The position numbers and the translations under genes were made by a program. A stretch of 64,000 nucleotides of DNA from Betaproteobacteria bacterium (lineage in GTDB: Bacteria > Pseudomonadota > Gammaproteobacteria > Burkholderiales > Usitatibacteraceae), in assembly GCA_016791265.1 (NCBI GenBank), contig JAEUMY010000004.1, forward strand, positions 1 to 64,000. Direction: 5' to 3'. Under the pieces are notes generated by a model. That model did no database searches. It was not told where the DNA came from and worked only from the letters and a program-made list of their open reading frames with translations. Positions 20,028-63,631 of this stretch are shown one piece after another. The stretch's first letter is position 1. Each line of letters opens with the position of its first letter.

Positions 20028-20756
20028 TCAGGCATGCACCAGTGTACCTTCGTCCTCGCCCATCACGACACGCTTCAGCGCCCCGGACTTGAAAATGCTG
20101 AACACGCAAATGGGCAATTTCTGGTCACGGCAGAGCGCCAAAGCGGTCGCATCCATGACCTTGAGATGTTTGACGATGGCTTCGTCGAAGCTGACTTTTT
20201 CATAGCGCGTCGCCTTGGGGTTCTTCACCGGATCGTCGGTGTAGACGCCATCGACCTTGGTGGCCTTGAGGACGATTTGGGCTTCCATTTCGCGGCCACG
20301 GAGCGCGGCCGCGGTGTCGGTGGTGAAGAACGGGTTGCCCGTGCCGGCAGCGAACACGACGACCTTGCCCTCTTCGAGATAGCGCATGGTCTTGCCGCGG
20401 ATATAGGGCTCGACCACGGGTTCGATGTTGATGGCGGACTGGATGCGCGGCGTGAGACCGGCCTTGTGCAGCGCGTCTTGCAGCGCCAGCGAATTGATGA
20501 CGGTGGCGAGCATGCCCATGTAGTCCGCCGTCGCGCGATCCATGCCGGCTGCGCTTTGCGACACGCCGCGGAAAATGTTGCCCCCGCCGATGACGATGCC
20601 GATCTGCACGCCGAGGTCCGCGACTTCTTTGACCTCGCCCACGATGCGTTCGATGGTGGCGCGATTGATGCCGAAGGCGTCGTCACCCATGAGGGCTTCG
20701 CCGGACAGCTTCAGCAGAATGCGTTGGTACTTCGGGGTGGGCGTTGCAGGCGTCAT
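20028..20756 (-). CDS. pyrH: Uridylate kinase
   Basis: A 242-aa hexameric UMP kinase of the amino acid kinase fold. Signatures are [27 protein letters not shown] and the C-terminal [16 protein letters not shown]. The ATG follows AGAGGAGAG at eight bases. It is separated from tsf by the tsf terminator, so it probably also has its own promoter in the 114-bp gap. Confidence 0.97.
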
Positions 20757-20830: not shown

Positions 20831-20860
20831 AAAGGGCTTGCGAATATTCGCAAGCCCTTT
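20831..20860 (-). terminator. tsf terminator built on the iterated palindrome
   Basis: A 30-bp perfect palindrome ten bases after the tsf stop. The arms AAAGGGCTT and AAGCCCTTT extend the common 12-mer GCGAATATTCGC (20840-20851). On the tsf strand it is followed by TGTTGT, so the run of U is short (TTTTGTTGT including the arm end). It should still form a long G+C-rich hairpin. This is the only copy in the window that clearly serves as a terminator stem. Confidence 0.75.
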
Positions 20861-21807: not shown

Positions 21808-21819
21808 GCGAATATTCGC
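21808..21819. repeat. Iterated palindrome, intergenic rpsB-tsf
   Basis: Twenty bases upstream of the tsf start codon, near where a tsf leader would lie. Confidence 0.9.
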
Positions 21820-21846
21820 GTTACGTATCAATTGAAACTTGAGCTT

Positions 21847-21875
21847 AAAAAAAGGGGCTTCGCAGCCCCTTTTTT
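21847..21875 (-). terminator. Rho-independent terminator of rpsB
   Basis: On the minus strand the stem GGGGCT, loop GCGA and AGCCCC are flanked by A and T runs, ending in seven T. It lies 24 bases after the rpsB stop, in the rpsB-tsf gap, and may attenuate readthrough into tsf. Confidence 0.85.
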
Positions 21876-63380: not shown

Positions 63381-63631
63381 AGTTGATCTTCTCCGAGGAA
63401 GCCTGGGAAGACTACCTCCACTGGCAAAAAACCGACAAGAAGATCCTTGAAAGAATTCATGCGCTGATCAAGGATATTGCACGCTCCCCATTCGAGGGCA
63501 TCGGCAAGCCAGAGCCGCTGAAGCACGCGCTGGCCGGATACTGGTCCAGGCGAACCAATGACGAGCACCGCATCGTTTACAAGGTTGCAGATGGCTCAAT
63601 GCTGATAGCGCAATTGCGCTATCACTACTAG
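63377..63631 (+). CDS. yoeB: Type II toxin, ribosome-dependent mRNA endonuclease
   Basis: An 84-aa RelE-fold toxin that cleaves mRNA in the ribosomal A site. The E. coli YoeB catalytic residues line up position for position: Glu 46, Arg 65, His 83 and Tyr 84 (C-terminus RYHY). Start is GTG 63377, overlapping yefM, which ties toxin synthesis to the antitoxin. It looks fully functional. Confidence 0.95.
   Translation: MKLIFSEEAWEDYLHWQKTDKKILERIHALIKDIARSPFEGIGKPEPLKHALAGYWSRRTNDEHRIVYKVADGSMLIAQLRYHY

Follow-up and report, generated by a model that had tools for sequence, protein, structure and literature searches.

The stretch of DNA analyzed here (the window, 64,000 nt) carries, just after tsf, a 30-bp perfect palindrome, AAAGGGCTTGCGAATATTCGCAAGCCCTTT, with arms AAAGGGCTT/AAGCCCTTT. 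At its center lies one copy of a 12-mer, GCGAATATTCGC, that is iterated in this genome far above chance. Both features had been pointed out in an earlier note on this DNA, and both are borne out by the present analysis. Judging from the sequence and from comparisons with relatives, we consider that the palindrome is probably an old intrinsic terminator of tsf, which would end or attenuate rpsB-tsf transcription before pyrH, and that its apex was later converted to the 12-mer.

The palindrome begins 10 nt beyond the stop codon of tsf, which lies on the minus strand in the gene order rpsB-tsf-pyrH-frr (Table 1). No other perfect palindrome in the window is as long (the runner-up measures 22 bp), and in a genome sample of 1.26 Mb this one ranks joint third in length; as a complete 30-mer, it is found only once in the whole genome. 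Another long perfect palindrome in the window (63603-63624, TGATAGCGCAATTGCGCTATCA) does not contain the 12-mer.

Table 1. Features at and around the tsf palindrome (window coordinates).
Feature	Position	Strand	Remarks
30-bp perfect palindrome	20831..20860	-	forms, as RNA, a stem of 13 bp closed by an AUAU loop; putative intrinsic terminator of tsf
GCGAATATTCGC, central 12-mer (hairpin apex)	20840..20851	.	1 of 1,624 genomic copies
U-tract, minus-strand reading UUUUGUUGUAAA	20822..20833	-	from sequence
tsf (elongation factor Ts), 305 aa	20871..21788	-	homologues found
pyrH (UMP kinase), next gene downstream of tsf	20028..20756	-	homologues found
Second 12-mer copy, in the tsf leader immediately before the gene; non-palindromic arms	21808..21819	.	
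Terminator-type hairpin without the motif, rpsB-tsf gap (A-run, GGGGCTGCGAAGCCCC, T-run)	~21846..21873 (approximate)	-	sequence and folding

Does this palindrome have the makings of a terminator? RNA folding of the hairpin plus its tail yielded a 13-bp stem with an MFE of -21.7 kcal/mol; the 71-nt context had a z-score of -5.06. Directly after the stem, the coding-sense strand reads UUUUGUUGU, with seven U in nine positions, three of which are paired in the full palindrome: the first three U of the tract double as the palindrome's last three bases. A G interrupts the tract. The site combines a stable stem-loop downstream of a gene with a U-rich tail after the stem, as expected of an intrinsic terminator, and from these features we infer that it may terminate transcription in vivo. 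Our own terminator scan of the 1.26-Mb sample predicted 50 terminators at 621 gene ends, that of tsf included, and none in shuffled sequences. A stricter consensus scan, which requires five T in the eight bases past the stem, did not list the tsf hairpin, because three of its U pair within the stem. Compared with the intrinsic (Rho-independent) terminators that follow tsf in Burkholderiales, the site is alike in its location just past the stop, its GC-containing stem, and its T-rich tail; it differs in the iterated-palindrome apex, the perfect 30-bp symmetry, and the three tail U that are paired in the stem.

The earlier note had described the motif as recruited to serve as the tsf terminator stem. 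The motif does top a terminator-type hairpin after tsf, but "recruited" overstates its contribution, because it supplies the apex only (the top four base pairs and the loop); the locus itself contributes the lower nine base pairs and the U-tract.

The 12-mer is present in 30 exact copies in the window (1081-61765) and in 1,624 copies in the 3.94-Mb genome, the assembly of which is approximately 90% complete. Statistics on its distribution were based on the sample (1.264 Mb, window included, 32% of the genome), in which 521 copies were found vs. 0.14 expected from a second-order Markov model. The density in the sample is 0.41 per kb, with near-random spacing. By our own simple gene caller, 326 of the 521 copies (63%; 0.305 per kb) are coding, and the 195 intergenic copies (0.99 per kb) compare with 81 expected from length. 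Density is highest 10-20 nt past gene 3' ends, where it reaches 6.4 per kb. Coding copies favor the frame GCG AAT ATT CGC (Ala-Asn-Ile-Arg), with 176 instances vs. 77 and 73 for the others, and TT is preferred before the motif and AA after it. In the 1.26-Mb sample, GTGAATATTCGC and GCAAATATTCGC variants numbered 14, all of them on the plus strand. A strand asymmetry of one-base variants was considered and dropped; genome-wide, the GYRAATATTCGC variants numbered 21 vs. 12.

Among the genomes searched, the 12-mer is essentially confined to its own. Sixty relatives, none of them another species of the genus, had zero to four copies each, and the maximum among 398 other genomes of the order was nine. 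A 16-mer, TTGCGAATATTCGCAA, with 184 copies in its own genome, was absent from all 397 other Pseudomonadota genomes searched. In 800 kb of "Betaproteobacteria bacterium UKL13-2" (UKL13-2), a member of the same family used as a comparison, no comparable iterated palindrome was found. A literature search for the 12-mer gave no match beyond a paper on colibactin crosslinks.

How did the terminator and the motif come together? The earlier note had left two routes side by side: the motif was built into a terminator, or it grew out to one. Comparison of the tsf-pyrH gaps of relatives favors the former and disfavors the latter, because genomes of a sister genus carry terminators without the motif at the same position. 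Among 67 tsf-pyrH gaps ≥35 nt long from this family and other Burkholderiales (the window's own gap counted), 33 had a terminator-like hairpin; shuffled gaps had none. In three genomes of the sister genus (L019, L025, and L028), hairpins lacking the 12-mer, with T-rich tails, lie 8-10 nt past the tsf stop. That of L019 is ACGGGGAAGCGA-AACA-TCGCTTCCCCGT, and its apex, GCGAAACATCGC, is three bases off the 12-mer; the corresponding apices of L025 and L028 have three and six mismatches, respectively. Seven other members of the sister genus (L018, L020, L021, L023, L024, L026, and L029) showed no clear terminator at the tsf site, which renders the "ancestral" status of the terminator uncertain. Arm sequences of tsf hairpins vary between genera, and a MAFFT alignment of four tsf terminators shifted the window sequence by one stem and left the stems unaligned; the homology of these hairpins is thus based on position and structure, not on sequence. 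L021 and L040 have the same tsf-pyrH gap sequence. In another sister-genus genome (L027), the apex of the tsf hairpin is apparently interrupted by ~80-90 nt of inserted sequence with a CTCCTCCCGGAGGGG-type palindrome, flanked by the arms GGGGAAGC and GCTTCCCC.

A second gene end resembles that of tsf. Between rpoA and rplQ (named from gene order and protein sizes), the genome carries the hairpin CGGCGATGCGA-ATAT-TCGCATCGCCG with the 12-mer as its apex, and several relatives have hairpins without the motif in the same gap, e.g., GATGCAGTG-ATAT-CACTGCATC in L223. The rpoA-rplQ hairpin of one relative has GATGC...ATAT...GCATC in common with that of the genome under study. The palindrome at L145 is unlike those after tsf and rpoA, in that most relatives have no hairpin at its site. 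This last case, together with the enrichment of 12-mers 0-60 nt after gene 3' ends, which would provide many seeds, is what would be expected had the 12-mer come first and locus-specific arms grown round it under selection for termination. We regard that history as unlikely for tsf: at both tsf and rpoA, relatives devoid of the motif still have a hairpin in the same place, and the arms fall short of 5 bp in 104 of the 113 copies located at 3' ends.

Only ~2% of 12-mer copies have palindromic arms 5 bp or longer. Such copies are concentrated no more than 60 nt from gene 3' ends, where they make up 9 of 113 vs. 0.71 expected (0 of 2000 flank shuffles); elsewhere there was no excess, with 3 coding copies vs. 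1.54 expected and no other intergenic copies. Of the nine, six are located between convergent genes, only about half have a T-rich tail as judged by eye, and one is the L145 palindrome. This distribution bears on the notion that, by coincidence, one of ~1,600 copies fell symmetrically into a hairpin. Such an accident would fit an arrangement seen in a single one of the 30 window copies and in 2 of the 50 predicted terminators; we nevertheless deem it very unlikely, as long-armed copies near 3' ends exceed expectation more than tenfold and, of the 15 longest palindromes in the sample (≥22 bp), 12 have the 12-mer at their center. Apex capture with long arms after gene 3' ends thus looks like a weak genome-wide tendency. 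Capture by terminators is rare, since the motif is inside only two of the predicted terminators (tsf being one), each time as a single copy.

Returning to conversion of a pre-existing apex, we infer the following order of events. The terminator would predate the motif at tsf. As GCGAATATTCGC accumulated across the genome of this lineage by base substitution, the apex of the tsf hairpin, presumably already near GCGNNNNNNCGC, would have been converted to the full 12-mer; conversion would have preserved stem pairing, leaving a site that carries a motif at the DNA level as well as a hairpin at the RNA level. Capture may have been favored by the short mutational distance from GCGNNNNNNCGC-like apices and by the tolerance of apex changes that preserve pairing. 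Read in this manner, the tsf site clearly illustrates how a motif spreading through a genome can overwrite the apex of an old terminator and lodge harmlessly in a functional RNA.

Co-option of a repeated motif into terminators is already known for the DNA uptake sequences (DUS/USS) of Neisseria and Pasteurellaceae, in which the stem is built from a pair of non-palindromic motif copies in opposite orientation; the sequence is present in about 55% of strong terminators in Neisseria and in 17-29% in Pasteurellaceae (PMC1852404, PMC2397512, PMC3630211). On its sequence distribution, the 12-mer appears similar to these elements: it is a short motif of ~1,000-2,000 copies, tolerated in genes, enriched after them, and co-opted into terminator hairpins, with its hairpin copies concentrated between convergent genes. 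It departs from them in being a perfect palindrome, a single copy of which forms the apex only, and in its presence in just 2 of 50 terminators. Pairs of 12-mers within 30 nt numbered 9 vs. 3.6 expected, and paired copies as DUS-like stems were set aside in view of this weak excess. With one palindromic copy at its apex, the tsf hairpin represents a variant of this known co-option, and the more surprising part is the 12-mer itself, not its placement in a terminator.

A closer likeness in form is offered by HIP1, GCGATCGC, which with the alternate HIPs constitutes the highly iterated palindromes of cyanobacteria (PMC4390886). Like HIP1, the 12-mer is a grossly over-represented, genome-wide palindrome that starts with GCGA and ends with TCGC, and its one-base deviants are concentrated at the outermost positions (45 of 79 in the sample at the first or last base). 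Like the alternate HIPs, it is essentially confined to a single genome (PMC4390886). Unlike the cyanobacterial HIPs, it measures 12 bp rather than 6-8, has another core and a betaproteobacterial host, and is enriched after gene ends; searches for PF01555 and PF02086 gave no matching methyltransferase. Given its 1,624 copies in one betaproteobacterial lineage and its near absence from the rest of the family, the 12-mer makes a sharp case for studying the origin of iterated motifs, a question that stands for HIP1 too.

Might the 12-mer act at the DNA level? The earlier note had suggested a bound protein as a roadblock, i.e., that a sequence-specific DNA-binding protein on the 12-mer blocks RNA polymerase and so causes termination. 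The motif is shaped like a dimer site and clusters past gene ends; in Synechococcus elongatus, HIP1 shows an enrichment of RNA polymerase peaks, albeit at just 41 of 7,402 sites (PMC3219970). We find this proposal highly improbable: 326 of the 521 sampled copies are within genes, the hairpin and U-tract suffice, and no protein is known to bind the 12-mer. Distinctly doubtful, too, is that the 12-mer is a dual DNA/RNA element placed preferentially after stop codons, serving as a protein or methylation site in DNA and, where its arms allow, as a hairpin at transcript 3' ends. If true, the machinery that spreads the 12-mer would be remodeling the terminators of this genome.

The copies themselves seem to have been made in place. 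Twenty-eight coding copies had a UKL13-2 homologue at ≥50% identity, and in 26 of these the alignment was free of gaps around the 12-mer, which argues that 12-mer copies arise by substitution. Insertion of a mobile 12-mer was rejected on these gap-free alignments; the flanks, moreover, are nearly uninformative beyond TT/AA. Elhai's model for HIPs (PMC4390886) and the uptake-sequence model may each account for the spread of the motif. A Dam-type or N6/N4 methyltransferase is disfavored as the driver, there being no match to PF02086 or PF01555 in this ~90% complete genome. One C5 methyltransferase (PF00145) adjoins GmrSD_N and NOV_C proteins at L220:360-4058; the cluster is probably a restriction-modification or defense locus. 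Elsewhere in the assembly, the start of contig C9 (L132:1-209) contains two homopolymer runs of C or G, 109 and 96 bases long, that are probably an assembly artifact.
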